From NCBI GenBank assembly GCA_964036045.1, contig OZ038389.1, positions 40,481,064-40,545,063 on the forward strand: a stretch of DNA of 64,000 nt. Direction: 5' to 3'. Both the position numbers and the translations under genes were made by a program. The stretch comes from Eutreptiella sp. 'Long Island Sound 2002' (taxonomy: Eukaryota > Euglenozoa > Euglenophyceae > Eutreptiales > Eutreptiaceae). The stretch's first letter is position 1, and every line of letters begins with the position of its first letter. This document shows positions 14,201-48,385 of this stretch, one piece after another. Under the pieces are notes generated by a model. The model did not search any database. It was not told the origin of the DNA and saw only the letters and a program-made list of their open reading frames with translations.

Positions 14201-14326
14201 GGTCAGCACAATGATCTGAGGGCAGACGAAAGCAATGCGCAATGCGCAAAATTTGGTGAAAAAATCCCAGATTGTCGCACAGGAACAAGCATACACCGCA
14301 ACTGTTGGCTTCTTGATGCTTGTTGG

Positions 14327-21590: not shown

Positions 21591-21599
21591 ATTCAGTCT

Positions 21600-21705
21600 T
21601 GATTAGGGTTAGGGTTGGTGTTAGAATTAGGGCCTAGAGTAGGGGCAGGGTTCGGGTGAGGGTTAGGGTTAGGGTTAGACCTAACCCTAGCCCTAGCCCT
21701 AGCCT
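21600..21705. repeat. Interstitial telomere-like tract with head-to-head junction
   Basis: Degenerate TTAGGG repeats run 21602-21678. After a two-base spacer (ac) the sequence continues as CTAACCC/CTAGCCC repeats to about 21702, that is, in the opposite orientation. Around the centre, 13 of 14 outward positions pair. Confidence 0.8.
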
Positions 21706-26379: not shown

Positions 26380-26518
26380 TGCAATGCTGTGACCCTGTGA
26401 ACAGGGAACAGGGTAGCCTCGCCGCACCCGACCCACGTCATGCGGTTAGGTTGGCGGTTGGCGGTTGGTGGCGGTGGGCAGTGGGCGGCTGTTTGGCGGT
26501 CCATAGGGGCTGTCCTTC

Positions 26519-29281: not shown

Positions 29282-32200
29282 GCACTCGCCGGCCCGAAGG
29301 CTGTCGTGAACGCCCTGCCCTCCCCGACCCATTTTGACACTAGTGCTGTAGGGAGTAGGTGTTCTTTGTGTGCAGCTCTCATTGTGGTTCGCAGTGGAGG
29401 CCACCACCAACTCCTGGGGTATGCCTTATAGGCACACCCGCGCACAATGGATGCCACGTTGATTTGCATATGCAACTCCTTTTGCGCGTACGTGAGTGCC
29501 TTCCCTGCCATCGTGGGGAGCATGGAATGCAACACGGATCTGGCATTGGGGGACTCTCTGTCTACCCACCTGTCCCAAATCAGCAGGTCTGGCTCAGGGG
29601 AGTTTGTGTCTGGCGGCTGGAAAGTGACCCCTTTCATAAGTAGGGCCAATTCTGGCGAAGTAACGACCCGAGATTCGCACCAATCATTCACCGGGCCACT
29701 TGGTTCCCACTTCATGGGAATGTTATATAAAGTATCAAGGAACACTTGTGTGAACTGTACGACCTGCTGGCAGGCATCTGCAGAGCTGAAGTCCACATAC
29801 CCTATGTAATTATTGTCCATGAATCTGCTGAGCAATACAGTGGGGCCCTCCTGTGTCACAGGTGCCTGGTCTGGCAGACAACTTTTTGGAAACGTCGTTT
29901 CAGCAAGCATGACGTCCCTGGGATTCAATGTGTCAAAATGTGCAGTCAACAGGGGGCGTGCTCTTTTTGGGGCGGCAGCTATAATGTGACCGAAACGTCC
30001 TGATGGGAACGAATCCCACAGCCCCAGCACTTGTAAAGCGAAGCTTACGTCTCCCAGCCGGACCCATCCTAGAATCTTGTGCTATTGGTCAAACCACCCT
30101 CTCATACCGTAACAGGCAAAGAAATCGCGGCGCCTGGGCAGCACAATATCCTTGGGAAAGGTTAGCTGGGGGCCGGGTGTAAACGTACAGTGTGGTAAAC
30201 CCCTTCTCGACAACCCTTCATTAACTGTCTGCATGTGCTTCTGCATGCTGTCACGATCTAACAATACAGATTCACAGAAAATGGCCCACAAGACCATTAT
30301 TTGTGCAGACAAAAAACCTCCTATGGGGACCCCTCGCGGGCCCTGCCTCAGGAGTATGGAATCGCAACAGAAAAATGTGTTCTGCAACAGGTCCCACAAC
30401 ACATAATCGTACACCTGCTGAAAATGCACATTCATAAATGCAGACTCGGAGTTCTTGCCGACACGGTCTCTATGCCGGTCATTGCCATGTGCAATGCTGA
30501 ACCACAGGTCCACCCGCAAATTTAAATTGGTCATGATCTTGTCCTTAGCAAAGGTGAGTGCCTGTACTGCCTGTTTTTTGTCAATGTTCCAGTAACAGTT
30601 ACCCATATCCCTCTCCCTGACGAAGGTACAATTTCTGCCTGCATCCAATCTGTATAACCCCATAGACATGTCCCTGACCCCTAAAAGCGACGGCATAGAC
30701 ATGAATGGGACAGCCTTCATGGATTCCCTGACCATGAGTGTCAAGCATCTCCCCACTGTGCGTGCCAACGGCTTCAGTGGGTGTGGTGCAAAGGTAATTA
30801 CGTTCCGCCAAACAAAGTGGTTAATCAGCTCATCGAGCTTCCACTTGGGGAGTGAGAAAATGGCAGGGGGGGCATACTTTCGGCGTGGGGCATCGTTGCT
30901 GTCCGGCATGGGAAAAGGCATTACGTCCCACAATTCAGTAGGGATGCAGTGTCTGGCGACAAACTGTTGTCTGTACATGGGGTTTTGCAAGCTGTCAGAC
31001 ATAACACCGATGTCCTCGGCCAGCTTTAATATTCCATGTACTTGTGCAGACCGTAAAATCAGGAGTAGCCCCATAGCATTACATTGCCACGTGGATGGTG
31101 CTACCCCTACCACATTAAACTCTTTAGCACCCAGGATGCCATGCTGTATGTGCTCCTCCAGCAGTGAAACACAGAAACCGCCTATCTTGTGCAACTTTTT
31201 ATCCCACTGGGACACTGTCACTGACCAGCCTTTGAGACTGTCATTTACATCATGCAGGGTGTTGACATCTGTGTGTGTAGCAAGGCACGCATGCTCCTGG
31301 ATATACTGTACCGCCGTAGATTCAGTAAAAGCATACAGCGACTCGAATGTTTCGGGTAAGGATGTACCTGTCTCGGGCATATCTGGGTGTTTTGTCCTGG
31401 CAATAGGCTCTATTGAGGTGCGACAAATGTGTAAACCTGTCTGGAGGGATTCAGTGCTTGGCAGTGTTGCATTCCTAGCATTTTGGGTGCACGGGTTTGA
31501 GTCCCTGAGCAACGCTCTCCACTGGTCTGGGCTCCTGAACACGACATGTTGTTGTTTATCCCCACATGGGACCCTGAGGTCCTGCTTCAGCTCATGGCAA
31601 TGACACCGTCTGTTCATAGACTCAGTGCACTGTAGCTGGGTAATCTGTGAGCGTATACTTTCAGGCGTAGACCTCAACAGCTTTCCTAGTTGCAGTCCTG
31701 ACAAACATACAGGGTCACCTGATTTTGATGACAATAGTTCAGTGACGTGATTCACCACCACTCGTGGTCGTGCTCCACGTAACACTTGATGCACTTTCTT
31801 TGTTTTCTGTGGCAATATGGACAAACAGGACACAAGCCACGCTGTCAGTGGACTGGGCAGTCTGCACTGGGTCAGCATCTTAGCAAATTCAGTGCGCAAC
31901 AGCAACAGTAAAGAACGGTCTGGGATTGGGACTCTAACAGGGATTCTGTCTGGGATATAAATCCCGTAAGTGGCCATTAAGTGCAGTTGCACTTTCAGGT
32001 TTAAGGCTCTAAAGGGTTGTGGGCGCATGGGTCTTCTGCACTCCAACAGTATCGTGAGGAGCTGTGGGACGGAGTATTTTGACTTCAGGTTCTTGCACGT
32101 CATTATCTCCGCTGCTAACTGTCTCAAACATCCTACGGTTTCCAAGTTGAACGCTCCTGCTAGCAACCAGTCTACTCTTTGTGTTCCAGCATACGGCTGT

Positions 32201-33960
32201 ATCGCATTGCAGCAAGGGGAGAGCAGACGCTCCAGTTTGTATTCAGCACTGTCCAATTTGCCTGGGGGGGCGTCTTCCATGGGTCGCATGGTAACTTGGT
32301 GTGTCCCATGCATCGCCAAGAGCCGTGGCAGGGAGGGGATGTTACCAAAAAAGGGTGTCTTCTTCCGTTTTCGCTGTGTGCTTCCCATGTACATGGCTTT
32401 CAACGACTTTGCACGTGAAAAATGGCCCTTTAGCCTGTCCATGAACGGCCGCCGGCGTTTCCTCGCTTTTGCACCTACCTGGCCCACATATGTAGGGAAT
32501 TTTCCCAAGATTGCGTATGCGGAGCAGCTGGGTGTCAGTAAGCTCCTACGTACATCAATCTTTGCAAGTCTCGCTGCCCTGGACAACCGGGGTACCGGGC
32601 AATCAACCAACATGGCATTTGTGGTTTGGTAGTTTTGATCCAATGTGTGCCAGTCCGCCCTGGTCATTCGTTTCTTGGATAGCAGCAGGCGTCTCTTCTC
32701 AGCCAATTTTTCCCACTCTGACCAAAACTGTTTCAGCTTCGTCAGGTGATGCTGCGGCCGTCGCACATCGCTCGGGAGTGGGTACCAACAGGACGCTCTG
32801 TTGGACCTGTGCTCCTCCGGCACGTTCATTGACGCTTGTGTCTTGCACAGTCGCTGTAGCGCCGCAGCATACTTGTGAGGGGAAATGGAAACCCCAAGGG
32901 GGTCTTTGCCTTGCTGTACCAGGATGAGCTCCCATGGTCCACGCAGGGCGAGCCATTGAGGTCGCATCGCATGTTCCATTGAACGTACTTTCAGCGTGTG
33001 CCATGCAGCACAGACATGCACCCTATTGGACTCTTCATACCCACTTACCCACTGATTGAACACCCTGCAATGCGCACGGTTGTATAACACAAAGACTAAG
33101 AATGGCTGTGCTCCTGCAGGCAGGGGGTATTTCAATTTTCGATCAATGGTTTCAAGTGTAGTGATTAGTTTGGACTTGGGTACACCGTCAGGTCGTAGGA
33201 AAACGTTGCAGGATTTGGTTTCACGGTGTAACAGATCAGTCAGGGACAACGGGGATGCTCCGAAAGGGATGCAGTAAGGAGACATGCTTACAAAGGACAT
33301 TTCCGGCGGTGTGGTGAGTGCAGAGGTGCCTATAGCTAAATCTGCGCGCAACACGTCGGTGACAAAATCTTCAAGGCCTCCTGTAAGTCGGCAACGCAGT
33401 GGCTGGCACTGTGGCAGTAGGGTATGTAGGGCGTTTGCTTCGTCGTAAAAGGCTCGAAAATCTTGGGGGCTAACCCCTGACCATGTGTAGAAATTGTTCA
33501 CCATGGCTGATGCAAGCCACAACCGTCGGTATGCAGATGACTGACGAACTTTCAGAAAAAGGGCACGTTCTCTGACCGGCCAGTGCTCTGGGGGTTTGAC
33601 CCAGGAGAATTCTGTATTTTCGTCAACAAACAGGCGGGAAGGGAGTCTACATAGGTATGGGAGCTCAGGGGGCTGTTGGAACGGGTCTTCATGTGTGTCG
33701 CAACTGAACATGTCATCGCTAGCGAGACTAGATCTTGGCGTTGACAGGTTTGATGTTGTGGTCTTGGACATCGGTGATGCCGCAATGTCGCAGAATTTTC
33801 GCCCATGGTTTGCTGCATCCAACTGCTGTCGCAGATCATGTATCTGTCCTCTCAGCTGCTTTAATACAATCCTCTCCTGCATCATGGTGTTCCACTGTGC
33901 ATCAAGGACTGCACGCATGTCCGGTGCGATCTGTTTGGCTAGGTTTTCCGGCAGGGGCAT
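29248..33960 (-). CDS. Element pol: GIY-YIG-like endonuclease plus reverse transcriptase, with one in-frame UAG
   Basis: Starts 2 nt after the gag stop (TAAACATG overlap region). Residues 1-60 look coiled-coil. At residues 481-590 is a GIY-YIG-like block: AYAIL, TYVGQV, an Arg-rich stretch, RLKGHFSRA and later SAEYKLERLLSP with candidate catalytic Glu. RT motifs follow: RERDMGNCYWNIDKKQAVQA (motif A Asp), GPRGVPIGGFLSAQIMVLWA (motif B). Codon 1293 is TAG (30082-30084, context CAA-TAG-CAC). The frame stays open beyond it with motif C as SRFMDNNYIGYVD and the following LYNIPMKWEPSG block, to a stop at 29248. The stop thus splits the RT palm between motifs B and C. It is either a nonsense mutation or suppressed. 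The catalytic FxDD is FMDN. Confidence 0.6.
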
Positions 33961-33962
33961 GT

Positions 33963-35309
33963 TTACGCATCGTCACGTCCATCGCCTCCTCGTCGACGTT
34001 TACTCGGAGATGTGATTACGGACGCGGCCTTATGTGCTTTCAGTGCACCTTGGGCTGTGCCCCAGATTTTTTGCAGGCTGAACTCAACTCCTGCATTTTC
34101 TCTCCATGGTGGAATGTTCCACAGCACCGCATCTGGCTTGTCTTTTTGCGTAAGGATGACACAGCCCTCCGTGACAGCCGTGCACGCCACTCGTAGTGGA
34201 ACCACCACTACTTCGTCATCGAACAGCTGTGGTTCCCATTTTTCTTTTTTAGCTTTGTCGGCCGTGGTACATATGAAGACTCCGTGCTGGTAGAGTTGCG
34301 CCAGGACATGCACGAGTTCTGACCTTGTGCGCAGCTTCATAGCTTGGGCTGCTCCTGTCGGGTACAACGCGCACACCTCTGCTTTCATTACATCCAGCGG
34401 CATGTCAGCGGCGTTCACGGGGTCTGCTGCAGCATCTTGCCACTTCCTTTTTGGTTGCACACTGAGATCTGCATCCATCGCATCGTCGCCGAACAGGTCG
34501 TGATCGTCATCAGAGCCGTCTAACGCCGCTTGCAACTGTGCAGGTTGTACACCTTGCAGTGTGAGCATGAGCTTCATCATTCTGTGGGACTGGGAGTGTT
34601 TGGCATCCAGACTTCCGACCGATTTCTCAAGGCTGTGCAGTTTCCCATCAACTTGCCTTTTCCACTCAACAGTGAACTCAGAGTTGAGGTTACGTGCTTT
34701 TTGTGCGCCTTTTGGTCTTCTTTCATTGGCTGATTTCTCCGAGTGCGCCGATTCCGAGTCTGACACTTCATGCACCTGTGTAGTCCTCACTTCTTCCGGT
34801 GTTACCATATCTCCTGCAGCCATAAAGGTGCCCACTTTGTCAACTGGTAGCCATGATTGTAAACCCGTTTTCTTCCAGATCACCAACGCCAGTCCTCTCT
34901 TCTGCCCAACGTTACTCAGATCTAAATCTGAAAGATCGGCTCCTACATCTTTTGCCACGTCCCTGAAATTGCGGATTTCTCCATGTTCATCTTCTGCTAG
35001 TCTGCTGCACACCCCATGCCATTTTTTGCCCAGGTTGTACCTTTTGTCCAACTCTGTGGATAGTGGCCAGTTCACGTCGTGGTCGCTGCCCGTGTGTCCA
35101 TAGGCATAGCAGAAATAGCAGGTAGCGATGCGGGCCCACGCTTGTTTTGCCGGTGATGCACCTTTGCCTCCTTTGCCACGCCCTCGACCTCGTTGCCATT
35201 GGCTCCCGCTCGTACTCTTCTCGCTTGTTCGTTTCTCGCGCCGGTTGATGCACGCTAACAACTTGTCAGCGATCTTGTCCCCAAGGCGGTCAACTTGTTC
35301 GTCAGACAT
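33963..35309 (-). CDS. Element gag-like ORF with zinc knuckle
   Basis: The Met at 35309 (MSDEQVDRLGDKIADKLLA) is preferred as start. The frame is open to a Met at 35447 inside the terminal repeat, but that leader is Cys-rich and unlike a protein N-terminus. The order is a basic Arg/Gly/Ser/Lys stretch, then a CYFCYAYGHTGSDH knuckle of the form C-X2-C-X4-H-X4-H (retroviral type ends in Cys). A charged middle with acidic clusters and a helical region ending in KRRRGGDGRDDA completes about 448 residues. It probably binds the element RNA. The stop (TAA, 33963-33965) is 2 nt from the pol ATG, so pol may be expressed by reinitiation. Confidence 0.55.
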   Translation of the reverse strand: MSDEQVDRLGDKIADKLLACINRREKRTSEKSTSGSQWQRGRGRGKGGKGASPAKQAWARIATCYFCYAYGHTGSDHDVNWPLSTELDKRYNLGKKWHGVCSRLAEDEHGEIRNFRDVAKDVGADLSDLDLSNVGQKRGLALVIWKKTGLQSWLPVDKVGTFMAAGDMVTPEEVRTTQVHEVSDSESAHSEKSANERRPKGAQKARNLNSEFTVEWKRQVDGKLHSLEKSVGSLDAKHSQSHRMMKLMLTLQGVQPAQLQAALDGSDDDHDLFGDDAMDADLSVQPKRKWQDAAADPVNAADMPLDVMKAEVCALYPTGAAQAMKLRTRSELVHVLAQLYQHGVFICTTADKAKKEKWEPQLFDDEVVVVPLRVACTAVTEGCVILTQKDKPDAVLWNIPPWRENAGVEFSLQKIWGTAQGALKAHKAASVITSPSKRRRGGDGRDDA

Positions 35310-35425
35310 CTTTATAGCGCGGTCACACATGCACATGCTTGTTCTGCAACAGCACCACAATCCCGCGGCTCCAACGAACAGTAGTGAAAGACAAACACTT
35401 ATGTGGTTGTGTTCGTCGCGACGGA

Positions 35426-35991
35426 TCTTTCTATCTTTGTCACACAAGCAACGAGCACTGGATCATCAGTGGTCACGCTGGCAGAGCCCTCACACAGGGG
35501 ATGCCCAAACACAAAACCTGTCCAAAAGGCAACGTAATAGGTGGACAGTTTTTGGCTTTCACTCAGCACTGGATAGCTACTTGTGTTTCGTTTACACCCA
35601 GCTGCATGATTGGTGATCCTCTTGTGGGCTCAGGCCTCGGCGGCTGAATACCCTACTGTACAATGTATTCTTACTCTGTGGTCTGGCTGAAAGGAGAAAC
35701 ATCTTGCAGCGCCAAACCCAGCAGTGTGTGCCGTTACATACTGGCACTTCACACCCAGCGATCATCTGGCCATTCTCGAAACCCGGATTTAAAGGTGCTC
35801 AAAATTCAAACTAGTCTTAAAAATAAGATTGCTGTTTGAAAAATTGCATTTTGTTCACTGAATGGGCTGGTCTGTCCAAAAGGCCACTTTTGAACAGGCG
35901 ATTCGGGCCTCTGCGGGTTTTTTCAGGCGGCAACAGTCGCGCGCGCTGTGAAATGTTTCAGGACAGCCTGAGGGCCGGTGCGAAGTGCGCA
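35426..35991 (-). repeat. Upstream 566-bp terminal direct repeat
   Basis: Matches 28716-29281 as described there. The element promoter is expected here. A ctgatga string occurs on the sense strand about 35 nt from the inner end, but a hammerhead fold around it is not convincing. Confidence 0.95.
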
Positions 35992-36418
35992 TGGGTATTG
36001 GTATTAAGGGCTGCCATCGAGGGATGTGGGGCTGTATACAACGCAATGCCCACGCCAATGCTATGCATACAACCCACAGCCCACGTCAGCCAGTGGACTA
36101 AGAGCTAATGGTGGACCATGATGGCAGCCCATCCCTTTGGGGCACAAGGAGAATGTGAATCGTCGAGAAAAAAAACCTACATTTTTTGTTCCACCTTTCA
36201 ACGCAAAAACGATCCTTGGGGTGTCACTGACAAACAGTGCCCAAGTGGTCTGTACTGGTCAAGTGTGCAGCAGAAGCTAGATCAAATCCCCTTTATTCAC
36301 TCACTTTGGGCGGGAGCTAGAGCAAGCAAGCACTACCTCCGCCGAGACCTGGCGGCATACTGCAGGCCGGGGGATGTATGCCCTATGCGGCCGGGGGGTG
36401 TATGCCCTATACCATGTA

Positions 36419-36456
36419 ATTGGGATGCAGCGTTCTAGGGCGTGGTGCGGAACCCC
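36419..36456 (+). repeat. Left 38-bp terminal inverted repeat
   Basis: Begins attgggatgcagcgttctag and ends gtgcggaacccc; it is the exact reverse complement of 40952-40989. Confidence 0.95.
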
Positions 36457-36609
36457 TAGTTAGAACGCAATTTCTGGAACACCCACCTACCCTCAATTTT
36501 GGGGCAAACCACCTAAAAAAATGGATTCGGCACCCTCAAAAACCCCCCATCCCCTTTCTTTCCCCACATAACCCGCATCATGGGGGTGGTTTTTGGGGGG
36601 GGGGTCAAA

Positions 36610-36740
36610 GAGTTAGAGCACAGTTAGAACAGAGTTAGAACGCAGTTAGAGCACCTTGCTCTAACTAGTTATCGCGCTAGTTATCGCGCGATAACTCAGT
36701 TATCGCGCAGTTATCGCGGGTAGTTATCGCGCACCCCTCC
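36610..36740. repeat. Left subterminal repeat array
   Basis: Four copies of agttagagc/agttagaac-type motifs are followed by about five copies of agttatcgcgc, some forming the palindrome gttatcgcgcgataac. These are likely transposase-binding sites. Confidence 0.8.
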
Positions 36741-36801
36741 TCCCTCCCTCCCTAGGACAAACAACACAAAACACTTGGCACAAAGCATCTGTGGTCGTTT
36801 T

Positions 36802-38364
36802 TCATACAAAGTCATCAATGTCTGAGGCCTTGGCTGCCTCCAGTCCCAAAAGCCCTTGCTCCAGGGCGTTCATGGACATGCAATGGTGCATGTGGCGGAG
36901 GGACATACTTGGCCTCACCAAAGACCAACCCTTAAAACAATTTTTGAGCCTCCTCTTGTAAGGCCCATGCCGATACTCCGTTGGGATGGAGGAAAACTGA
37001 AAAATGTTCCTCCATTTCTCGGCAAAAAAGGTGGAATGTGCCAAGCACCAATGGATCCACCTGGTGGGGGACCAACCTGAGTCTCCCCACGCTTTTGAAA
37101 ATTTTGTGGTCAACGCACGGTGGCGTTCCACTTGGGTTAGAGTGTACAACTCCCTCACCCTCCAAAGCTCATACAAACCCTCAATGCATTTCACCATGAC
37201 ATGCACAACAACCCATAACATAGGTCCCCCAGGGGTCCTCACTGTGGGGACATGCTCTTTGAGGCATTCCACAAATTGCCTTTGGAAGGGGGGGGAGGTT
37301 AGGAAAACTTTGGTGCTGGTTAGATCGAAATCTTTTTCTGTGGCCCTCGAGGCCGAAGGGAGGCGTTCCCTAAGAGGGATGCCTGCGGTCTCATCTTTGA
37401 GGGCTTGTTTGAAGGCCTGCAAAGCTGCAAGAGCTTGGGCCTTACCAGGGGTACTAGGGGGGAGGGCCTGGAGGGTGGTCTCAATGCGCTTTGCAATGCC
37501 GTTTAGGATGCGGCATGCTGCATGTTGGTAGTCCCCCGGCCGCCTATCAGGGGTCACACTTCTCAAGAATGACCCCCATCTTGAGGTGGACTCCACCCCC
37601 ATTTGCTCAACAATCCCATTGGGGTCTTTGCACAACCAACACTTAGACCCAGCCCCCCCCATTGCTTGCATCCCCTTCCCATCCCCTGTCAAAATGACAG
37701 TGCAAGTCAAAAATTGGTTTTGAAAGAGGACAACGTCCTCTTCCACATCCCTCACCTCTTGGTTGAGGTTGGCGGAGATGTCAAGGCTTCTCAAAAAAGC
37801 CTGTTCATCCCCGCCATCCATGCAAAACCATGAGGCCCATAGCTTCACCTTCGAAGCATATTTTGCCCCCCCCCATACATTAACCCATACATCCGCACGG
37901 GTGGAGGATGCCTTCCACAAGGAAGTCGCATCAACTGAAATAACAATAATGGCAACGCCACTAGGGGGGGGTTTCCCAATAACTCGGGCCATAGATATTG
38001 CATTTTGCACAATTGATTGCAAAGGCACATGGGCAGCTGCCCTATTGCGGCCTGTGGTAGACTTTACAATGGTGGTTTGGGGAAAGTAGGGCATGATCCG
38101 TTGCCGAACGGTCCTTAGGTCCCGTTGTGTGCAACGGCGGGGCATTCGCAAAAGGGCCCGTTGGGAGAGATGCATGCTGCATGCCATGCGTAGCATGCTC
38201 AGGGCCTCATGCTCCTGAGCTGTTAATGCAAGATGGCCGCCAAGTGGGCCAGACAGGGCAGTGCACGCCCCACCACTTAAACAAACTTCGCCTTTGGTGT
38301 TGGTGCCACACACGACGTCTGGGTCACCCAATAGAACTCGCACCAGCCGCTGAACCGCCTTCAA
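36802..38364 (-). CDS. Transposase-like protein of the TIR element
   Basis: A 520-residue intact frame. The centre holds VAIIVISVDATSLWKASS (candidate first catalytic Asp, residue 145) and CTVILTGDGKGMQAMGGAGS followed by KCWLC (candidate second Asp, residue 228, with a CxxC pair at 242-245). A beta-strand ending in D.T/S and a second strand ending in GD followed by a CxxC are features of RNase H-fold DDE transposases. The GD..(x)..G..C..C spacing recalls the CMC/Plavaka/KDZ groups. The third acidic residue is not assignable by eye. The C-terminus is helical with W/H-rich segments (RWIHWCLAHSTFFAEKW). It is the only plausible recombinase within the inverted repeats. Family assignment is inference. 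Confidence 0.5.
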   Translation of the reverse strand: MKAVQRLVRVLLGDPDVVCGTNTKGEVCLSGGACTALSGPLGGHLALTAQEHEALSMLRMACSMHLSQRALLRMPRRCTQRDLRTVRQRIMPYFPQTTIVKSTTGRNRAAAHVPLQSIVQNAISMARVIGKPPPSGVAIIVISVDATSLWKASSTRADVWVNVWGGAKYASKVKLWASWFCMDGGDEQAFLRSLDISANLNQEVRDVEEDVVLFQNQFLTCTVILTGDGKGMQAMGGAGSKCWLCKDPNGIVEQMGVESTSRWGSFLRSVTPDRRPGDYQHAACRILNGIAKRIETTLQALPPSTPGKAQALAALQAFKQALKDETAGIPLRERLPSASRATEKDFDLTSTKVFLTSPPFQRQFVECLKEHVPTVRTPGGPMLWVVVHVMVKCIEGLYELWRVRELYTLTQVERHRALTTKFSKAWGDSGWSPTRWIHWCLAHSTFFAEKWRNIFQFSSIPTEYRHGPYKRRLKNCFKGWSLVRPSMSLRHMHHCMSMNALEQGLLGLEAAKASDIDDFV

Positions 38365-38471
38365 ACGCCGCCGCCGGGCCTTGGGGCACTGCAGATCGGT
38401 GTACCGCCGCAGGTTGGCTGTGTTGAGAGCCCGTTAGAGCAGGGGTTAGAGCAGGGTGTTGTGGGAGGTTT

Positions 38472-40607
38472 TCACACCTGGTGACATGGACACATGCCTT
38501 GGCCCTCCTTCTTGGCGTCGTCCAGCACCAGGCCCAGCCTCCGCAGCCACACGAAGTCCGTGACGGCCGCATACTCCCCCACCTGCCGCCACTCCACCAC
38601 CTGGGCCACCCCCTCCGCCTCAGGGGCCACCCTTGCCACTCCCCCATACAACCCCCTCCTCACCACCAAAATGGTGCCCGCCGGCACCTTCATCCCAACA
38701 TGCCCTTGCAGGGTGGGCCAGGGCAGTGCCTCCCCATGGCACACCTTGGCCAAGGGGCACTGATCGGGGTGGCCTGCGACCGCCCCCGCCTCCTCATTAG
38801 TGAGGGGGGCAATCACCTCCCTCCCAACCCCCCACCCCGACAACAAAAAATGCCCTGTGGTTGTTCCCACCGGGAGCAAGCACTGAGCAGATTGCTCAAT
38901 GCTGACCCCATTGGGGTCCACCACCACCTCCTCCTCCTCCCCCCCCTCCACCTCCTCCCCCTCCTGGCATGGCACACAAAGGCCATCTTTGTGGGCGGTG
39001 CACAAAATCAGCCGATTGCATCCGTAGCAATTGGCTACCACCTTCCCCCTACACCTAACCGCCCCATCACACTGGACTGTCCTGGCCACCCGGCCACCAG
39101 GTGCCCCCAGCTGGGGCCTCTTAATGGACTGGGTCACGTGCAGGTTGGGGAATCGAAGATTCCCCCCCACGGTAAGCTCAATGGCAAAAAATGCCATGAG
39201 GCGGGGGTGGGACACCCCCGTGGGGGAGGCCTTGGGAATCCCCGACCCCCTGTGGACATCAAGGGCATTAAAAAAAAAGGCAGTGCCCCTCTTGAATGGC
39301 ACAGCCCTCTCCACCCAAGGGTCAGGGAACCCCGAACTGCTGGAGGGCACAAAAAGAAAATGTGACCCATCCTCCTCCTCATGATTATGGGTTAGCATAA
39401 TAAGGCAATTGACAATCAATGTGCCTTCAGGAATGGTGTAGGGGGGGGCGTCGCGATGGAGGTGCTGGGGGGTGTGGTCATAGCTCGAAATTTCGGCCAT
39501 GTCAAGGATGGTGCAGCTCCATCCAACCCCCCCCACCACAGTCTTCTTCGCCGTCTCAAGCACACGATCTGCCACCCTTTTGAGGACTGGCAGATCATGG
39601 AGCTTGTGGGGGTTGTGCCTGTGGTGGTTGGCACCCCCATAGTTGCCGTACAATGTACGGCGGGTCCCAGAATCTTGGGGCCTGCCGACAATGGGGGGGT
39701 TCTCATTGAAAATGGGTGCCTTCTCTGAGAGAGGCACCCTATCCAAATCATCCAAAAGACTTTGGAGCTGCACAGCACTCAAAAAATCGTGCTCCAGGAG
39801 GTGGTTGACCACCAGCTTCCCCCCCACCGTGAGCACAAGGTCATTGGGGTCCCTATTAAAGGCCCCCAAGGGCTCGGCGGCAACCACCTCCTCCGCCTCC
39901 CCAATAAGGGGGGGTGTTGCCCCAAATGGAAAAAGAATCACCCCCTGCCCCGAAACAATGTTGGGAGTGGTGACCCCATACCACTCACGCTCCCACTCCC
40001 TTGTGGGGCAAAGGGAGTGCATGGGGAGCTTGTTTTCGGGGTCGTCAGTGCAGACCCGGCGGGTGTTGTGGGTGAGGGGTTGGGGGAACCAACCATCCGA
40101 CTGCCCCTTCCCCTTACCCGGTCGGATCCTTACCTTCTGGACACTAATCATGAGGGGGTTGTGGGGCTTCTCCTTCCTCCCCCCAGCCCCCACCCCCCCC
40201 GCATCCTCCTCCTCCTCCTCCACTTCCTCCACTTCCTCCTCCTCCTGACCCACATAGAGGGTCGTCTTCGTCCCCGCACCCTTCTCGGCATGGGCGGTGA
40301 CGGACTCCACCACCGCGTCCACATCGTCCGGATGAAGCTGGATCAAAAATCCAGCAACCCCTGGATTTACCTCTAGCAACTCGAAGATGTAGTTGCTGAG
40401 AACCAGGGGGTCTCGGTCGTCCGCCATGAAGGGGGACTTATGGACAAGGAGTCCAAAGTCCACACCATGTTCAAAGCGGGTCGCCACAGGGCGCCTCACA
40501 TTGGCATCACCCATCGTAAACCCCTCAGGACCGCCAAGGCGACGGACCCCAAGGAGCTTTTGATGGTGCTCGCACCAAGCGTGGGCAGCAGCAAGGGCCA
40601 TTATCAA
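38472..40607 (-). CDS. 2-oxoglutarate/Fe(II) dioxygenase with Cys cluster, carried by the TIR element
   Basis: A 711-residue intact frame. Residues 384-386 are HRD (the HxD iron ligands, in PQHLHRDAPPYT), followed by a core strand GTLIVNCLIMLT. The distal ligand is His452 (ALDVHRGSG), and Arg469 in SHPRLMAFFAIE is the probable 2OG carboxylate ligand. The double-stranded beta-helix spans about 360-480. N-terminal of it is an acidic run (about 121-135, mostly Glu); C-terminal is a Cys-rich block (CRGKVVANCYGCNRLILC..., about 517-550) that may bind zinc. Such enzymes oxidise nucleic-acid bases (TET/JBP, AlkB) or proteins. The HRD form and strand context recall TET/JBP, but that subgroup is inference. 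Placement inside a transposon suggests modification of element or host DNA. Confidence 0.65.
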   Translation of the reverse strand: MIMALAAAHAWCEHHQKLLGVRRLGGPEGFTMGDANVRRPVATRFEHGVDFGLLVHKSPFMADDRDPLVLSNYIFELLEVNPGVAGFLIQLHPDDVDAVVESVTAHAEKGAGTKTTLYVGQEEEEVEEVEEEEEDAGGVGAGGRKEKPHNPLMISVQKVRIRPGKGKGQSDGWFPQPLTHNTRRVCTDDPENKLPMHSLCPTREWEREWYGVTTPNIVSGQGVILFPFGATPPLIGEAEEVVAAEPLGAFNRDPNDLVLTVGGKLVVNHLLEHDFLSAVQLQSLLDDLDRVPLSEKAPIFNENPPIVGRPQDSGTRRTLYGNYGGANHHRHNPHKLHDLPVLKRVADRVLETAKKTVVGGVGWSCTILDMAEISSYDHTPQHLHRDAPPYTIPEGTLIVNCLIMLTHNHEEEDGSHFLFVPSSSSGFPDPWVERAVPFKRGTAFFFNALDVHRGSGIPKASPTGVSHPRLMAFFAIELTVGGNLRFPNLHVTQSIKRPQLGAPGGRVARTVQCDGAVRCRGKVVANCYGCNRLILCTAHKDGLCVPCQEGEEVEGGEEEEVVVDPNGVSIEQSAQCLLPVGTTTGHFLLSGWGVGREVIAPLTNEEAGAVAGHPDQCPLAKVCHGEALPWPTLQGHVGMKVPAGTILVVRRGLYGGVARVAPEAEGVAQVVEWRQVGEYAAVTDFVWLRRLGLVLDDAKKEGQGMCPCHQV

Positions 40608-40659
40608 AGAATACGAAGGCTTTGAGAGCTAAAGCGAAAAGGGGAAACATAAAATGAAG

Positions 40660-40805
40660 CGCGATAACCCACGCGATAACCCACGCGATAACTAGTTATC
40701 GCGCGATAACCCCCGCGATAACCCCCGCGATAACTAGGTTATCGCGCGATAACCCACGCGATAACTAGTGCTCTAACCCCGTTCTAACCCCGCGATAACT
40801 AGTTA
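40660..40805. repeat. Right subterminal repeat array
   Basis: At least eight copies of cgcgataac, several as the gttatcgcgcgataac palindrome, are followed by gctctaac/gttctaac motifs. It mirrors the left array in inverted order. Confidence 0.85.
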
Positions 40806-40951
40806 GAGCACACAAAGATCAAATCGCAAAAAGTGCAAAACGGGCAATATCGAGCAAACGAAACATGGAAGGCACATTGTTGCATCATAGTGCACCCTTG
40901 TAACATGTGAAATTCCGGGTTCCAACCATATTAACAACACCCAAAATTGGG

Positions 40952-40989
40952 GGGGTTCCGCACCACGCCCTAGAACGCTGCATCCCAAT
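40952..40989 (-). repeat. Right 38-bp terminal inverted repeat
   Basis: The exact reverse complement of 36419-36456, ending cgctgcatcccaat. Confidence 0.95.
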
Positions 40990-41089
40990 CGTGTGTTCCC
41001 ATAATGGTACGCCGTGTGGGGTGATGGGGAAACCCTGCTACAACCCGGCGGCATGCTACAGGCCGGGGAATGAATGCATGACGGACAAT

Positions 41090-41362
41090 TTAAGTGAAAG
41101 TTCGCACAACAGTTTTAGAGAAAGCCGCTTTGAACATGACCTAGCTGATGATAAGGCGCAAGCACACCATACCAAACCATGCCATGGCATCCCTGCAACG
41201 CCTTGCGTTGGCTGGGCGAGGAAAGGCGAGGCGATCGAGCGTGCGCAAGTGTATGTGCAAGCGTGCATGTGGAGAAAGGTGCTGCAACCAAACCCTCGCT
41301 AAACTAACCCCGCATGCCATTCAAACACGCCTCTCTTTCTCAAAATTGATACCCGAATTCTT
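41090..41362. repeat. Satellite unit (~300 bp) left of the YR retrotransposon
   Basis: It contains the phrases of the satellite found at 46445-48385: gcgcaagcacaccataccaa, gtggagaaaggtgctgcaa, and cacgcctctctttctcaaaa followed by ttgatac.cga. It is cut off at 41362 by the retrotransposon and resumes at 46445. Confidence 0.85.
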
Positions 41363-41433
41363 AGTTTAACCCTAGTGCATGCACGATACACGACAGCTCA
41401 ATGCCACAAAAATGCTTGCCTCAGGCACTCCGG
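41363..41433 (-). repeat. Split direct repeat B2
   Basis: agtttaaccctagtgcatgc to ggcactccgg; same as 41913-41983. It ends the element. Confidence 0.95.
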
Positions 41434-41842
41434 CCCAATCAGTCACCACTCTGCAGTGGACAGTATACATCGTTGAGGGTGCAACATCGTCCGCCTCCCC
41501 GCAGGGGACCCCACCACAAGTCACACACACAGAACTCTTTACCCGCGGTCGCTGCCTCCCCTCGCCGACGCCTACACCTATTGCGCTATCTAACATACAT
41601 CTCATACATGCAAAAAAAACGACACCACCCTTCACGGCCTGCTCACAGTGGCCTCAGGGGGTGGGTGGGTGGGGACAGGTCATGGATCCGCTTCTCCCCC
41701 TCCCCTCCGACTCCTCCGTAGGTAGCGGGCTGCTGATGCTCCTGTGCCTTCCACTACTGTCTTCATCATAGTGTATCACGTTCACCCGCTTCGGCATACC
41801 CACCCGCCTCAAGAACAGTCGACAGGGGGGGGGGGGGTGGGG
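41434..41842. other. Non-coding spacer between A2 and B2 of the YR element
   Basis: 409 bp without a credible frame on the sense strand. It has a G run at about 41826-41837 next to A2. Confidence 0.6.
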
Positions 41843-41983
41843 ATCAAAACGGACAAATGCCTAATGAAGAGGTAATTAGTTAAACTAGTGTTTTGAGCAA
41901 GCTCAAAACACGAGTTTAACCCTAGTGCATGCACGATACACGACAGCTCAATGCCACAAAAATGCTTGCCTCAGGCACTCCGG
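41843..41983 (-). repeat. Internal B1-A2 junction repeat with recombinase-site palindrome
   Basis: A2 (41843-41915) and B1 (41913-41983) overlap by the AGT core. Inside A at 41889-41910 is the inverted repeat gtgttttgagc-gctcaaaacac, 11-bp arms flanking a central aa pair (slightly different offsets). The same palindrome is in A1 at 46418-46441. It is a plausible tyrosine-recombinase binding site. Confidence 0.85.
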
Positions 41984-42240
41984 AAAACTCTACCAGACAG
42001 ACATCTCTCACCGGCGGCTCGAATCAGGGCATCTTCATACGTAGCTCAGTCCCTGCACCCAACACAATTCTGGATGTCTTTGCAACACATCCCAGCGCCT
42101 CCACGCCGCCATCTCTGCCTGATGAACCTCGCCTCCAAAATCCACTGTTATCCTACTCATCGGATCCGCTGGATGCAATACAGAAGGTACCCATACCAAT
42201 TTCACCAGGATTCCTTAGACTGTATTATGCAATACCCAGG

Positions 42241-43869
42241 TCAGAGCATGTAACACACGCAATTAAACTGTGTACGCAGCCCAGACGACGCTCTCAATCC
42301 CCTGACCTGCGCAATACCAACCAAACTGTCAGCAAAAACTGTCACCAGCCTCCAACCCAACCGCACCGCCAACCGAACCGCCCACGCCACGCCCATCAAT
42401 TCCGCAACCTGCTGATTACAAGGACCATCTGGACACACCCACGTACGCACCGCAGGCACCGTGGGCAACACGCCTCCTACCCTATAACACGTTCCATCTT
42501 TAGCGGCATCTACAAAAATCACAGCGCCAAATAAATCATCCAATACAGCCTGTCTTTCCTGCAAGCACCAACCACCCAGCTGACGCACCCTGCGCATACG
42601 AACAGCAGAAATCGGGCGCCAGCTCTGGCCGATTCTCGCAATCGCAGACGCCAGTCCCTCAAGCACCTTAACAGGCGTGGCTGCCGCCGTCTCTGGCCCA
42701 AAACGAGACCAAGCGTAGGACCCAGCCAACAGACCTGAAAACCCCCTCCTGGGCCGTAAATGCCACTGCAGTGTACCTAGCAATTTATCCAACCTCCTCT
42801 TGCTATATCCACAAGTTGCCAACCTAATCCAAGCCACAATCAACTGCAGAAAAACAAAGGGCTGCACCTGAATACGTCTCTCCTTCAAATTAACTACTTT
42901 ACCCAAAGCCTTCAAAACCTGCACAGGTGTCAGTGTACTTTTCAAACTAACCAGAAATCCTGCCCGTCGGATACGCTCCGCGACCTCTTCAGTGGTCATA
43001 CTTAACAACATTCTGTTCGCTGATAATAATATAAAATCATCCAAATAGTGGACAAGGAAAACGCCGTCCGGCACTGCACCCTGTACCACCCTGCCCAGTA
43101 GTTGTTGGCACAAAAAAGGTGAAAAAGCCCACCCGAAAGGCAGCCGGTCCAAAGAAACCAACCCACTGTCCTGACTCGTGTAAAAGCGAAAGATTCGTTG
43201 TGCCTTCGGAGGCAAGAGAAACGACCAATATGCATTCGTGAGGTCAATGTGTGTCCCGTACAACTGCACCGACGGATCCTGTTCCGCCCTCCACCGCCCA
43301 ATGTTTTCCCACGACGCCAGCGAAAACTTAGGAGGTTTCAAATGCATCCCCTTGTGAATCCCCACACAACTTAAAATCAGAGAGCACTTGATTTCGTTCT
43401 TCGGAATCACAAACGGGAAGCACGTAGGCGACAGAGACATCGGTTCATCATGCAACACACCCGTCTGCCTAATAGCATCGGTATTCCCACGAACCGGCGC
43501 CCTCACACGCCCATTACCCTCAACAGAACTTCGCACACCAAACGTACACATGAAATTCAAAAACTCCGGCGGCACCACCTCATCCCACTCCTCCTCTGTG
43601 ATCCTATAACACCCCACCTCCCCAATGCCGGCTTGCAAGATCTGGGGCGTAATGGACGCCCTCTTCGATTTCGGTGAAGTTGACAGATGGTTAATGGAGT
43701 CCCACGCCCCAGGCGTCATCAAACACACCGCCATGGGCTCATCTAACCGAAAATCCTCACACGCACACGCCATCCTATTCAAGAAAATCCAAAATCTGCG
43801 TACCAACAACGCGACGGAACACTTTAACCGTGCTGTCAACCACACCAGATGCTGCGTCACAACGGACAT
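42241..43869 (-). CDS. Reverse transcriptase / RNase H of the YR retrotransposon
   Basis: The start at the Met at 43869 is chosen as the first Met after the recombinase stop (43988). The frame itself is open to 45786, but there it lies antisense-like under the YR and gag genes. RT motifs: FPFVIPKNEIKCSLI, HIDLTNAYWSFLLPP (motif A), DRLPFGWAFSPFLCQQLL (motif B) and HYLDDFILLS (motif C, catalytic YLDD). RNase H: AVIFVDAAKDG (Asp), QQVAELMGVAWAV (Glu), VTVFADSLVG (Asp). All catalytic residues of both domains are present, about 542 residues in total, so the enzyme looks competent. It copies the element RNA after recombinase-independent transcription. Confidence 0.85.
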   Translation of the reverse strand: MSVVTQHLVWLTARLKCSVALLVRRFWIFLNRMACACEDFRLDEPMAVCLMTPGAWDSINHLSTSPKSKRASITPQILQAGIGEVGCYRITEEEWDEVVPPEFLNFMCTFGVRSSVEGNGRVRAPVRGNTDAIRQTGVLHDEPMSLSPTCFPFVIPKNEIKCSLILSCVGIHKGMHLKPPKFSLASWENIGRWRAEQDPSVQLYGTHIDLTNAYWSFLLPPKAQRIFRFYTSQDSGLVSLDRLPFGWAFSPFLCQQLLGRVVQGAVPDGVFLVHYLDDFILLSANRMLLSMTTEEVAERIRRAGFLVSLKSTLTPVQVLKALGKVVNLKERRIQVQPFVFLQLIVAWIRLATCGYSKRRLDKLLGTLQWHLRPRRGFSGLLAGSYAWSRFGPETAAATPVKVLEGLASAIARIGQSWRPISAVRMRRVRQLGGWCLQERQAVLDDLFGAVIFVDAAKDGTCYRVGGVLPTVPAVRTWVCPDGPCNQQVAELMGVAWAVRLAVRLGWRLVTVFADSLVGIAQVRGLRASSGLRTQFNCVCYML

Positions 43870-43987
43870 GATAGTCAAAAAAATCCCACCCTTAAATCTA
43901 AGGTCAGGACCAGTGCCCACCACACCACCGACGAGCCCCGGCACAGAAATCCCCACCTCCCGCTCCCCCTCATCATCCAAGACTCGG

Positions 43988-45613
43988 CTAGCCCCCCCTC
44001 CTGTCGGAACTACTGGGTACAGTCCTGGATCGCTTTCTCCTCGGCCCGGACTCTCCGTCACTCTGGCGTCCACGCCGCTCAGCTCTCGCCACCCCGTCGG
44101 CAGCCGAGCCCCTCTCCGAATTCTGCGCCAACGCCACCTGCGGGCGACCCTGCCGTCTTGGTGGTACTGAAAGGGCTCTGCCACCCACCGACCTTTTGAC
44201 TCCACGTCCTCCTCTGCCAGCCGCATTCGCCGACCGCCAAAGCCCGGCTGTAGGCTCCGCCGCTGACCTTCCCGAGGGTGGCGCTGTGAATTTGAACTCA
44301 AGTCCGCGGGACGTGGAAGATCGCCTCTCCTGCCGTCCAGCTCCACCTGCATGTCGTTCTCCACTCCCCGCGGGCACCGACGGCCCGGGATCACTCCCCG
44401 GACGCCCGCCGTCGCCTCCACGGCCCACCGACGATCCTGATCGCTCACTCCTTCTCGTGCCTGCCTGCAGAACAACTCGCGCATCCTGTCGCAAACCCGG
44501 CCGTGGACCAACTTCCTCATCTGCGGACACACCGGAGTCGGACTTGTCCGAAGAACTCCCCAAGTCTGCCGCATCAGACCTAGGCTCGCCTGCAAACCGC
44601 TTGCCCCGCGCCATACTTGGAGCCGCCCGTCGCCTCTCGCCTCGTCCCCAGACCGGCTTGTTCTTCTGCTGGCTCCTGTCATCGAACATGATGTCACCCC
44701 ATACTCCTTCCGGATCAACGAACATCGCCCTAATAGGCGCCATGTCCCAAACCTGCGGTAGACAGAGAGGTGACACAACATCTTCATCTCTGTACCCCAA
44801 TGCATAGGCCATAGCCGTGGCCGTCGCGGCCCATCGACCCCACCACTTAAAATGCGGTAAGGACGGACCACGCTTCCAACAAGCCGCAGCCCCACCGCGT
44901 CTGAAACAGTGCCAACGATGTCCTGCCCAAGTGGTGCCGTACACGATGTCTGTGAGGGTCTTCTCCAAAAAGGCAGCCCCCGCAGGAAACAACAAATCAT
45001 CTCGCTCACATCCACGTTCCACAGCCCATTCATAGATCCACTCCACAAACGGCCGCAACCACTTAGGCACAGGGCGCCGCTGCCAACCCTCATCTCCAGT
45101 TTTGCTGTTCCAAAAAACAACATAGCCACTGTCACGCACATCGCCAACCCGCACACTCGCCGCCTCTGCAACTCGTAAAAAACAAACATAAGAAACCAAA
45201 GCCATGACCACCACCGACCGTTCATCGTTCGAAACCGCCTTCTCCACAAGATGCCGCAACAATACAGGACTAGCATACTCCTGCACTCCCGCTTAAGCCC
45301 CAGCCTTTGCCAGTCTCCAATGAATGGGTTGAACCACCCCCGATACCAGCTGCAAATCCTCACACGCTCGCACGGCAGAGATAATACCTCTTGCTGCACT
45401 TGCACTACCCCCATGTTGGACATGGCGGGCCAATTTTCGAGACAATACCTCTGGCAAATTGCCTTCCTCTCCGATCTCATCTTCAATGTCCGCCAGCCTT
45501 CGCAAGTGGGATAGATACCCCGCCGTTGTTGAAGGTTTCCATCCCCGAATCGCAACACCCACAACGCTAGTGGGTTCCTCTTCGCGTCGGCTCGACTCAA
45601 ATTCCATCGCCAT
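43988..45613 (-). CDS. Tyrosine recombinase of the YR retrotransposon, interrupted by one in-frame TAA
   Basis: Residues 1-106 (45613-45296) form a SAM-like core-binding domain (STTAGYLSHLRRLADIEDE...). A single in-frame TAA (45293-45295) follows, then the same frame continues with the catalytic domain. Catalytic residues: Arg in CFLRVAEAASVRV (box I); HCFRRGGAAACW (the HxxR of box II); a Tyr in WAATATAMAYALGY (nucleophile region). The Arg/Ser-rich C-terminal tail (about 200 residues after the domain) is low-complexity and may serve nucleic-acid binding. The stop would separate the two domains, so this copy may be dead unless the stop is read through or internal initiation at 45286 is used. 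It excises or integrates circular DNA at short identical cores. Confidence 0.8.
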
Positions 45614-45715
45614 CCAACGGAATGTCGGCCTCTCCGCCCTGGGCGGATAAATTCCCGCGACGGCATCTCGGTACCGCCACGGATTGGCTCGTCAGGACCA
45701 CAAAGGGCATCGGAT

Positions 45716-46360
45716 TCACCAATGACGGAGATTTTCCGTCTTCCCAGCCGCCGCACACCTCCTGCAATCCTCACCCGGTTGCGCATCCACCGGGATCCAA
45801 TCTCCGGCCTTTGACAACCAATAGGCTACCCCATCGCGCTTCTTGAACTGGATACTCTTGTAACTCCACGAATCGCCACCGGCCGCCATCGAATCTTCAA
45901 ACGACTCCGACTTTCCCTTGGGTCCCGACTTCTCACCTGCGGAGTATCTCTTCAAGTAGGTTGTGTGAGCGACAATCAAAATCTTCCACATCCTATATGC
46001 CAACGCATCCCCAACACTTAATTGTTGTCCCTGCTTGCCGCCCACGTCCGACGGTCTCGTTGGATTCGGCACGGATGTCACATACTTCTTGAGCACCTCG
46101 GACGCGTCCTTCATCCAAACCGCAATCCGGTCCTTCTTCAAAAATCTCTCTATCTCCTCCAAGCTCAAATCCGGAATCTCATCTTCCTTTCTGTTCTCAA
46201 TCTCGGCAGCCGCCAATTGACTACGGAGCCTCTCCATCTCCATATCTTGTTTACGAAGCATCAACTTCAATTCAGCCAATTCCTTGGCCGTCTCTGTCGG
46301 TACACTCGGCTCGTCGGAAACAACGACAATGTCCTCTTGCATATTATTTGGTGCATTCAT
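45716..46360 (-). CDS. Gag-like ORF of the YR retrotransposon
   Basis: 214 residues, beginning 12 nt inside the A1 repeat. Residues 20-60 are a strong coiled coil (ETAKELAELKLMLRKQDMEM then RLRSQLAAAEIEN). A globular helical segment follows, and a C-terminal CRRCAAAGKTENLRHW tail that could be half of a zinc-binding site. No protease is seen. It is the first gene of the element and probably forms the RNP particle. Confidence 0.6.
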   Translation of the reverse strand: MNAPNNMQEDIVVVSDEPSVPTETAKELAELKLMLRKQDMEMERLRSQLAAAEIENRKEDEIPDLSLEEIERFLKKDRIAVWMKDASEVLKKYVTSVPNPTRPSDVGGKQGQQLSVGDALAYRMWKILIVAHTTYLKRYSAGEKSGPKGKSESFEDSMAAGGDSWSYKSIQFKKRDGVAYWLSKAGDWIPVDAQPGEDCRRCAAAGKTENLRHW

Positions 46361-46371
46361 GACAAAACAAA

Positions 46372-46444
46372 ATCAAAACGGACAAATGCCTAATGAAGAG
46401 GTAATTAGTTAAACTAGTGTTTTGAGCAAGCTCAAAACACGAGT
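46372..46444 (-). repeat. Split direct repeat A1
   Basis: The same 73 bp as 41843-41915, including the 11-bp-arm palindrome. It ends in the AGT core followed directly by satellite DNA. Confidence 0.95.
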
Positions 46445-48385
46445 GTCCCCTCATATTTTTCCATTATTTTGTTCTGACCAAGACGCAGTTTGAGTAGAAG
46501 TACGCGCAAAAAATTTGGAGTAAGTATCTTTCAAAATGACCTATTAGATGATAAAGCACAAGAACACCATACCAAACCATGCATATTTGTGTGGAGACCG
46601 GTGTTGCACCCAAACCCTTGCACACATGCACTAACCCCCCATGCCATCCAAACATGCCTCTCTTTGTCAAAATTGATACTCGAAGTGTCCCCTCATATTT
46701 TCCCATGATTTTGTCGTGGCCAAGGCGCACTTTGACAGACAGTTGGAGTGAAAGTTCGCACAACAGTTTTGGAGTAAGCAGCTTTCAACATGAACCACCA
46801 GATGAGAAGGCGCAAGCACACCATACTACCATACAAACCATGCCATGCCATGCCATGTCATGCCATGCCAGCCATGCCTTGCCATGGCTTGGCGAGGTGC
46901 GGCAAGGTGAGTGCGTGTGATGTGTGGAGAAAGGTGCTACATCCAAACCCTTGCAGACATGCAATAACCCTGCATGCCACCCAAACACGCCTCTCGTTGT
47001 CAAAATTTATCCTTTTTGAGTGAATTCCAATTTTAGTGAAGGTTGATGCAACCGTTTTGAAGTAAGTAGCTTTCAACATGACTCAGAGGATAAGGCGCAA
47101 GCACATCATACCAAATCATGCCATTGGATGCCATCTAGCAAATCCTTGCCTGGGCATGGCGACGCGAGGCAAGGGGATTGAGAGCGCGCATTGACATTGA
47201 CATGTGTGGAGAAAGGTGCTGCATCCAAACGCTTGTAGACATGCAGTGGCCCCCCATGCCATCCAAACAAGCCTCTCTTCCTCAAAAGTGATCCTAGCAG
47301 TGGCCCCTCATATTCTTCCATGATTTCGTCGAGGCCCAGACGCACTTTGACGCACAATTTGAGTGAAGGATCGCACAACCATTTTGGAGTGAGCGGCTTT
47401 CAACATGACCCATCAGATGATAAGGCGCAAGCACACCAAACCATGCCATACCATGCCATCCATACCTTGCCTTGGTTTGGCAAGGCGAGGCAGGGCTATC
47501 GAGCGTGTGCGCATGTGGAGACCCGTGCTGCAACCAAACCCTCGCAAACATGAACTAACCCCGCATGCCATCCAAACACGCCTCTCTTTCTCAAAATTGA
47601 TACTCGAAGTGTCCCCTCATACTTTTTTTCCATCATTTTGTTGCGGCCAAGATGCACTTGACAACAATGTGAGTAAAAGTTCGTGCAAAAATTTTGGAGT
47701 AAGTAGCTTTTAAAATAACCCATTAGATGGGTCATACCCAACGTGCAAGCAAAATCCTCAATGATGCATCATAGGCTGTGAGAGTACGGAAAACGTCTGG
47801 GGCGCAACACACAGTGCACAGGACACATATGCACAGCTCTAGCTCGTATATGCACCGTCGTGTGTTTTCCCTGCACTCGGCCTTATGTAAAGTAGAAATC
47901 ATACTACCGGTGCCATGACGTACATAGTACCATGCCTCATGACCCTGTCACTTTGTTACTCGTCCCTGCCATGCCCTTGCATTGGTGTGGCAAGGCGAGG
48001 CAGGGCTATCGAGCGTGTGCGCATGTGGAGACCCGTGTTGCAACCAAACCCTCGCAAACATGCACTAACCCCGCATGCCATCCAAACACGCCTCTCTTTC
48101 TCAAAATTGATACTCGAAGTGTCCCCTCATATTTTTCCATTATTTTGTTGTGACCAAGACGCACTTTGACAAACAATTAAAAAGATAATAGTAAAGTAAA
48201 AGTTCGCACAAAAACTTTGGAGTAAGTAGCTTTCATAATGACCTATTAGATGATAAGGCACGAGAATATCATACCAAACCAAGCACATGTGTGTGCTTGG
48301 TGCAAGGTGCTACACCCTAACCCTTGCAGACATGCACTAACTCCCCATGCCATCCAAACACGCCTCTCTTTCTCAAAATTGTTGA
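46445..48385. repeat. Satellite array of ~240-330-bp units
   Basis: The unit phrase gtgtcccctcatat..tccat recurs at 46443, 46683, 47295 (as gtggcccc), 47609 and 48118. Each unit then has a ttttggagtaagtagcttt segment, an acaccataccaaaccatgcc segment, a gtggagaaaggtgctgca segment and a final cacgcctctctttctcaaaa segment. An unrelated block (about 47735-47955) interrupts the array. 47960-48120 is almost identical to 47470-47610, so local conversion or duplication is recent. All ORFs here are shadows of the repeat. Confidence 0.85.

Follow-up and report, generated by a model that had tools for sequence, protein, structure and literature searches.

Here, we analysed a stretch of 64,000 nucleotides (hereafter the 64-kb window) of contig OZ038389.1 from the euglenophyte Eutreptiella sp. 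'Long Island Sound 2002' (assembly GCA_964036045.1) and found that it holds a DNA transposon of 4571 bp (window positions 36419-40989), which probably carries its own gene for an oxygenase of the 2-oxoglutarate (2OG)-Fe(II) type next to a transposase gene. Such an element had been proposed in an original prediction made from the sequence alone, and our analysis supports it. The kinship with the DNA base oxidases of the TET/JBP type that the prediction drew on was not recovered, and weak but consistent sequence evidence points to a PhyH-like enzyme instead. We tentatively propose, at a confidence approaching an even call, that the element represents a family of cut-and-paste transposons of the RAG1/Transib/EnSpm ('CMCT') type, which combine their own DDE transposase with a PhyH-like oxygenase outside TET/JBP that counters silencing. 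The anatomy of the element and the identity of its genes we regard as highly probable.

The oxygenase gene lies in an intact open frame on the minus strand (38472-40628, 718 codons from stop to stop). Its product, originally given as 711 residues, has the length listed below, and is 99.7% identical to the database protein P0001 across 680 amino acids. The gene and its parts are:

38472-40601, minus strand: 2OG-Fe(II)-oxygenase-like gene, 709 amino acids from the ATG at 40601 (680 from the ATG used in P0001)
39132-39824, minus strand: oxygenase core, residues 260-490, PhyH-like by matches below the Pfam cut-off and to TlxJ (see below)
39450-39458, minus strand: HRD, residues 382-384, putative Fe(II) ligands by motif and alignment
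39252-39254, minus strand: distal His 450, putative Fe(II) ligand by motif and alignment
39201-39203, minus strand: Arg 467, putative 2-oxoglutarate ligand by motif and alignment
38967-39071, minus strand: Cys/His module, residues 511-545 (CxxxxxC, CxxC, C-H, CxxC), no Pfam match of its own
38475-38924, minus strand: C-terminal domain, residues 560-709, without a Pfam family; part of it is conserved in the distant relative P0062

H382, D384, H450 and R467 thus supply the HxD...H triad and the downstream Arg of the Fe(II)/2OG superfamily, in an order and at a rough spacing that fit, as the prediction had read them; the Cys-rich module that it had named comprises eight residues (C511, C517, C525, C528, C534, H537, C542 and C545). 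For comparison we used 74 proteins listed by protein searches, which are computed gene models whose exact joints are unreliable but whose neighbourhood and order are reliable; the searches detect only relatives sharing exact 5-residue words, and one of them scored the best 7994 candidates. Wherever near copies and P0062 could be aligned, the putative ligands were largely kept, namely H382 in 23 of 24 sequences, D384 in 20 of 24 (two others have Glu), H450 in 16 of 19 and R467 in 15 of 16. The exceptions look as ageing copies would, and frameshifted tails of gene models may account for some of them. A structure model of the oxygenase, built on an alignment of the window protein with 10 near relatives (74-97% identity), reached a mean predicted local distance difference test score of 26.8 and speaks neither for nor against a double-stranded beta-helix.

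In Pfam, the whole oxygenase matched PhyH (E 0.011) and 2OG-FeII_Oxy_3 (E 0.079), and the core alone did so more clearly (PhyH, E 7.3e-4, 20.3 bits against a cut-off of 22, profile positions 11-202 of 213; 2OG-FeII_Oxy_3, E 0.017, likewise below its curated cut-off). Among 11 scanned oxygenase copies, 2OG-FeII_Oxy_3 was matched by four, PhyH by three and four other families once each (E 0.08-0.28); P0062 had no PhyH match. Tet_JBP, with E values allowed up to 10, was matched neither by the whole protein nor by the core nor by any of the 11 copies, while the TET/JBP protein of phage Nigel, used as positive control, matched Tet_JBP (E 4.3e-6) and no other family; the control PiuC matched 2OG-FeII_Oxy_3. 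When the core was searched against solved structures, TlxJ (PDB 7vbq), an Fe(II)/2-ketoglutarate dioxygenase presumably filed under PhyH, was found at E 0.31, with HRD, the distal His and the stretch between them aligned on their counterparts. A repetitive RanBP2-type protein ranked above it (E 0.0018); no single stretch of that protein passes. TlxJ differs in its chain of 318 residues from the window protein with its long N-terminal part, Cys/His module and C-terminal domain, and PhyH-type oxygenases in general differ in that the window protein stays below the Pfam cut-off and is located in a transposon. The whole oxygenase had no matches among solved structures, the oxygenase profile and a three-row core profile gave chance-like matches only, and no PHROGs or NCBIfam family was matched by the three proteins tested.

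Could the oxygenase be a strongly diverged TET/JBP enzyme after all, which oxidises 5-methylcytosine or thymine and is missed by profile methods? The HxD...H...R plan is shared, and six phage TET/JBP proteins also have HRD and an Arg 15 residues after the distal His. Moreover, a survey of fungal transposons (PMC12730594) describes the entry of TET/JBP genes into 11 transposon lineages, CMCT ones included, and one fungal group of TET-like proteins is described there as tied to TET only via HHpred. Against this stands that PhyH and 2OG-FeII_Oxy_3 are matched where Tet_JBP is not, with a control that finds it. Profile-profile comparison with six phage TET/JBP sequences gave a probability of 0.10% (0.15% with three phage PiuC sequences), but two real 2OG families, TET/JBP and PiuC, scored 0.05% against each other, so that low probabilities carry no information here. 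We consider a hidden TET/JBP enzyme improbable and continue with the PhyH-like assignment.

The second gene of the element encodes the transposase:

36802-38433, minus strand: DDE transposase frame, 543 codons and stop, lacking the nine-codon start of its relatives (open reading frame, alignment and model)
37930-37932, minus strand: D168 (VDATSLW), putative first catalytic Asp, invariant in 6/6 rows
37681-37683, minus strand: D251 (TGDGKGM), putative second catalytic Asp, invariant in 6/6 rows
37630-37641, minus strand: CWLC, residues 265-268, C(2)C motif in 5/6 rows, C(4)C in P0067
37036-37053, minus strand: HWCLAH, residues 461-466, H(4)H in 6/6 rows
36976-36978, minus strand: E486 (IPTE), putative catalytic Glu, invariant in 6/6 rows
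38434-38471, minus strand: intergenic spacer, with two GTTAGAGC units starting at 38433 and 38445; the transposase leader and start of other copies are missing

Judged by an alignment of six rows, four of them at 33-37% identity, the protein carries the motifs of RAG1/Transib/EnSpm transposases, and a structure model of moderate quality supports a RAG1/Transib-type fold. The distance to known members is considerable, with 8-12% sequence identity in structural alignments of the model to RAG1, Transib and ProtoRAG (BbRAGL) and no match better than E 0.14 in the PDB sequence set. The window frame matched no Pfam family at E up to 10, and KDZ was absent among the Pfam matches of six transposase relatives, both with the limit that HMMER filters may hide weak matches. 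With its CMCT motifs, the transposase is probably not of the KDZ group, in agreement with the prediction, which had suggested a different transposase. Viral and bacterial/archaeal contigs yielded no transposase homologues.

Of the two intact frames originally described, both are present as long frames and that of the oxygenase is intact, but the transposase lacks its own initiator. The start MDNAVNEAL, found in 16 of the 74 database proteins including P0034 (552 amino acids), is encoded by no frame of the 64-kb window within two substitutions, and the window frame opens nine codons after it, immediately behind a stop; an intact transposase in the window copy was therefore rejected. The tail of P0015, translated beyond the end of the oxygenase, implies that another copy, too, has GTTAGAGC-like repeats behind its oxygenase, and we infer a deletion that ran from such a repeat to the transposase start. 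The window copy has perfect ends and was probably inserted recently, but its transposase is start-less, so that its mobilisation would need protein from other copies.

The ends of the element consist of terminal inverted repeats (TIRs), perfect as predicted, and of subterminal arrays:

36419-36456, plus strand: left TIR, 38 bp, 100% complementary to the right TIR
40952-40989, minus strand: right TIR, 38 bp, 100% complementary to the left TIR
36609-36731, no strand assigned: left subterminal array by repeat counts, GTTAGARC units followed by 6 CGCGATAAC sites (36668-36731)
40660-40809, no strand assigned: right subterminal array by repeat counts, 11 CGCGATAAC sites (40660-40799) and GTTAGARC units

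A 24-nt probe from the TIR, with up to three mismatches, found only these two ends in the 64-kb window (expected 0.00), and the TIR sequence had no match in viral or bacterial/archaeal contigs. All 17 copies of the 9-mer CGCGATAAC in the window lie within the two ends of the element (6 left, 11 right), compared to a mean of 0.09 and a maximum of 1 in 100 shuffled sequences. Their orientation is mirrored, with 5 of 6 on the minus strand at the left and 9 of 11 on the plus strand at the right end, and no one-mismatch variants were found in the ends. The GTTAGARC unit occurs 11 times, nine times at the ends and twice between the two genes. EnSpm/CACTA elements likewise have short subterminal repeat arrays in inverted order at their two ends; the ends of RAG1/Transib/ProtoRAG elements differ from those found here. 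Since the ends read ATTGGG...CCCAAT, we did not file the element in any named CMCT lineage. A clear target-site duplication (TSD) was rejected, as a scan of the ends reported only TGCA, inside the TIRs, and a possible palindromic AT is not separable from the TIR. As a separate observation, a 35-nt direct repeat (36347-36381 and 41043-41077, 86% identical) flanks the transposon too far from its ends to be a TSD.

Following the original expectation that both genes should recur together, we looked at their pairing among the 74 relatives and found that 16 proteins join parts of both genes (BLASTP), in 15 cases with the oxygenase part ahead of the transposase part, the same order as in the window. 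These 16 gene models, P0062 included, lie on contigs of 15 different lengths (P0029 and P0064 have one length in common), one of which may be the window's own contig. Alternatively, the pair could be a chance product of this locus, where two different elements became nested or recombined side by side. In favour of this, the junction holds end-like GTTAGAGC repeats and lacks the transposase start, a clear TSD is absent, and the oxygenase and transposase clusters are unequal in size. The recurrence of the pair in one order on so many contigs, the single pair of TIRs with no inner copy and the repeats implied after the oxygenase stop in P0015 speak against such an accident, which we regard as very improbable.

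The sixteenth joined protein, P0062, begins with the first part of this transposase and continues into a different oxygenase, which aligns to that of the window with 27% identity over 358 columns (E 1e-16). The alignment scores 59.7 bits, and 500 shuffled sequences (489 with any alignment) reached at most 27.3. The similarity covers the core in its later half as well as the Cys/His module and the C-terminal domain. P0062 keeps all 12 checked oxygenase residues, 10 of which had been marked before P0062 was seen, while C534 and H537 were added after its alignment. Retention of these residues at such low identity suggests long constraint. A second, old branch of the oxygenase is thus present in the same or a very close genome, once more adjoining transposase sequence.

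P0062 also bears on the question of whether the element picked up a host or metabolic gene, so that the oxygenase would be a passenger with no role in the life of the element. PhyH enzymes are frequently metabolic, and the putative ligands are lost in some copies, both of which would suit a passenger. Yet all 12 residues were kept in the second form, again beside transposase sequence, and the clusters have hundreds of members (counts which may include several assemblies of one species). No plain host relative of the oxygenase was among the matches listed, which is weak evidence of absence as the searches are limited to shared 5-residue words. Viral contigs and phages gave no oxygenase homologues (one phage search returned two chance-level matches, E 4), and viral contigs none of P0062. 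A passenger gene seems quite improbable, and we prefer an oxygenase that serves the transposon.

What could this service be? Across the window as a whole, the observed/expected ratio of CpG is 0.67; the two genes stand at 0.42 and 0.46, the left end stretch of the element at 0.78 and the right one at 1.43. We counted deamination-type changes in 69 proteins whose ungapped matches reach 75% identity or more. At Ala, Pro, Thr and Ser codons, such changes affected 22 of 41 NCG but 59 of 257 NCH codons (odds ratio 3.9, P 1e-4), and at Arg codons 22 of 47 CGN but 5 of 39 AGR codons (odds ratio 6.0, P 9e-4), P values that are guides only since the copies share ancestry. Other changes showed no excess at CpG codons (odds ratios 1.04 and 0.43; P 1.0 and 0.08). 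The excess of CpG deamination among copies indicates that the element is probably methylated at CpG by its host. The CpG-rich right end fits either protection from methylation or selected binding sites; we rejected CpG-rich ends as stand-alone proof of demethylation because selection of binding sites explains them too.

The ends, subterminal repeats, transposase motifs, oxygenase motif set, recurrence of the gene pair and residue conservation in the distant relative, all read from sequence, are the basis on which we suggest the following mechanism. The transposase, or a partner, would bind the inverted CGCGATAAC arrays and cut at the TIRs, while the Cys/His module, putatively zinc-binding, would target the oxygenase to chromatin or nucleic acid, where the enzyme would remove or convert a silencing mark placed on the element by a CpG-methylating host, either 5-methylcytosine in DNA or histone methylation. 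As a result, the element would stay expressed or its CpG-rich binding sites would stay usable. Oxidation of the element's own ends or of host DNA, as first envisaged, is possible, and a PhyH-type core would allow action on DNA, histones or another protein. We put forward the anti-silencing role only tentatively, and consider DNA rather than protein an unlikely substrate. An oxygenase that acts on protein or RNA (the transposase, a histone, a tRNA or a silencing factor) and thereby raises transposition, without touching DNA bases, would agree with a PhyH-like core that lacks a Tet_JBP match. The counterpart of the Cys/His module in P0062 adds weak matches to DUF3330 (E 0.018) and to zf-C2HC5 (E 0.03), a domain known from the transcription coactivator TRIP4. 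However, both matches lie far below the Pfam cut-off and the window module has none; we rate this reading, too, as rather unlikely, and retain the removal of a silencing mark as our working proposal.

The nearest precedent are the TET-bearing DNA transposons of fungi, which likewise carry a gene for an Fe(II)/2OG oxygenase. According to the survey (Kojima 2025, PMC12730594), the carriers belong to KDZ, hAT, PHISTA, IS3EU, EnSpm, ESTA, Plavaka and Helitron, the CMCT transposases of some show the C(2)C and H(3-4)H signature, and an anti-silencing role of their TET/JBP genes is proposed and stated as lacking experimental validation (section 4.2). The Eutreptiella element differs in an oxygenase that matches PhyH weakly and Tet_JBP never and has Cys/His and C-terminal domains of its own, and in TIRs that begin with ATTGGG instead of CA..TG; the cases described in PMC12730594 are fungal. 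With EnSpm/CACTA it shares the CMCT transposase motifs, but it lacks the CAC..GTG termini and shows no 3-bp TSD (features as given in the same source), and its transposase has no Pfam transposase match.

The surroundings of the transposon hold further repeats and genes. On its left (28716-35991), 566-bp direct repeats, 99.5% identical, bracket the minus-strand frames 33963-35462 and 30082-33972, neither with a Pfam match; on visual inspection, a GIY-YIG-like stretch precedes a reverse transcriptase (RT)-like one in the second frame, which is perhaps part of a permuted Penelope-like element. On its right, an RT frame (42241-45825; RVT_1, E 1.7e-12) overlaps a tyrosine-recombinase-like frame (43988-45292; Phage_integrase, E 0.17, below cut-off), and related repeats (41079-41357 and 46442-48381) lie around this RT region (41079-48381 in all), perhaps forming a DIRS-like element beside the transposon. 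Positions 17141-21614 are a tandem repeat with a unit of about 1.65 kb (2.8 kb are 97% self-identical at that offset). Host-like single-frame genes encode a prohibitin-like Band_7 protein (8002-8916), a Tmemb_14 protein (13889-14467) and a MINDY-3/4 deubiquitinase with UBA (24793-26445). A dinoflagellate host gained no support from a scan for the spliced-leader relic, which matched once with two mismatches (0.38 expected) and not at all in its shorter form. A possible DDE_Tnp_4 transposase remnant (4879-5577, E 9.7e-4) is below cut-off, and a 66-nt piece of eukaryotic large-subunit rRNA (10161-10226) reaches 51 bits against a cut-off of 50.

In the open-licence literature searched, the TET/JBP enzymes of fungal transposons were the only transposon-borne 2OG oxygenases found. 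It is a rather doubtful idea that Eutreptiella harbours a PhyH-derived anti-silencing oxygenase outside TET/JBP, in two diverged forms in apparently one genome, and that RAG1-type transposons captured 2OG oxygenases independently more than once. If true, a RAG1-type transposon would have arrived on its own at the trick of the fungal elements, with an oxygenase from a different branch, and the family would offer, in high copy number, a new candidate for an oxygenase of nucleic acid or chromatin. The notion that transposons erase their own silencing marks would then become testable with a non-TET gene.
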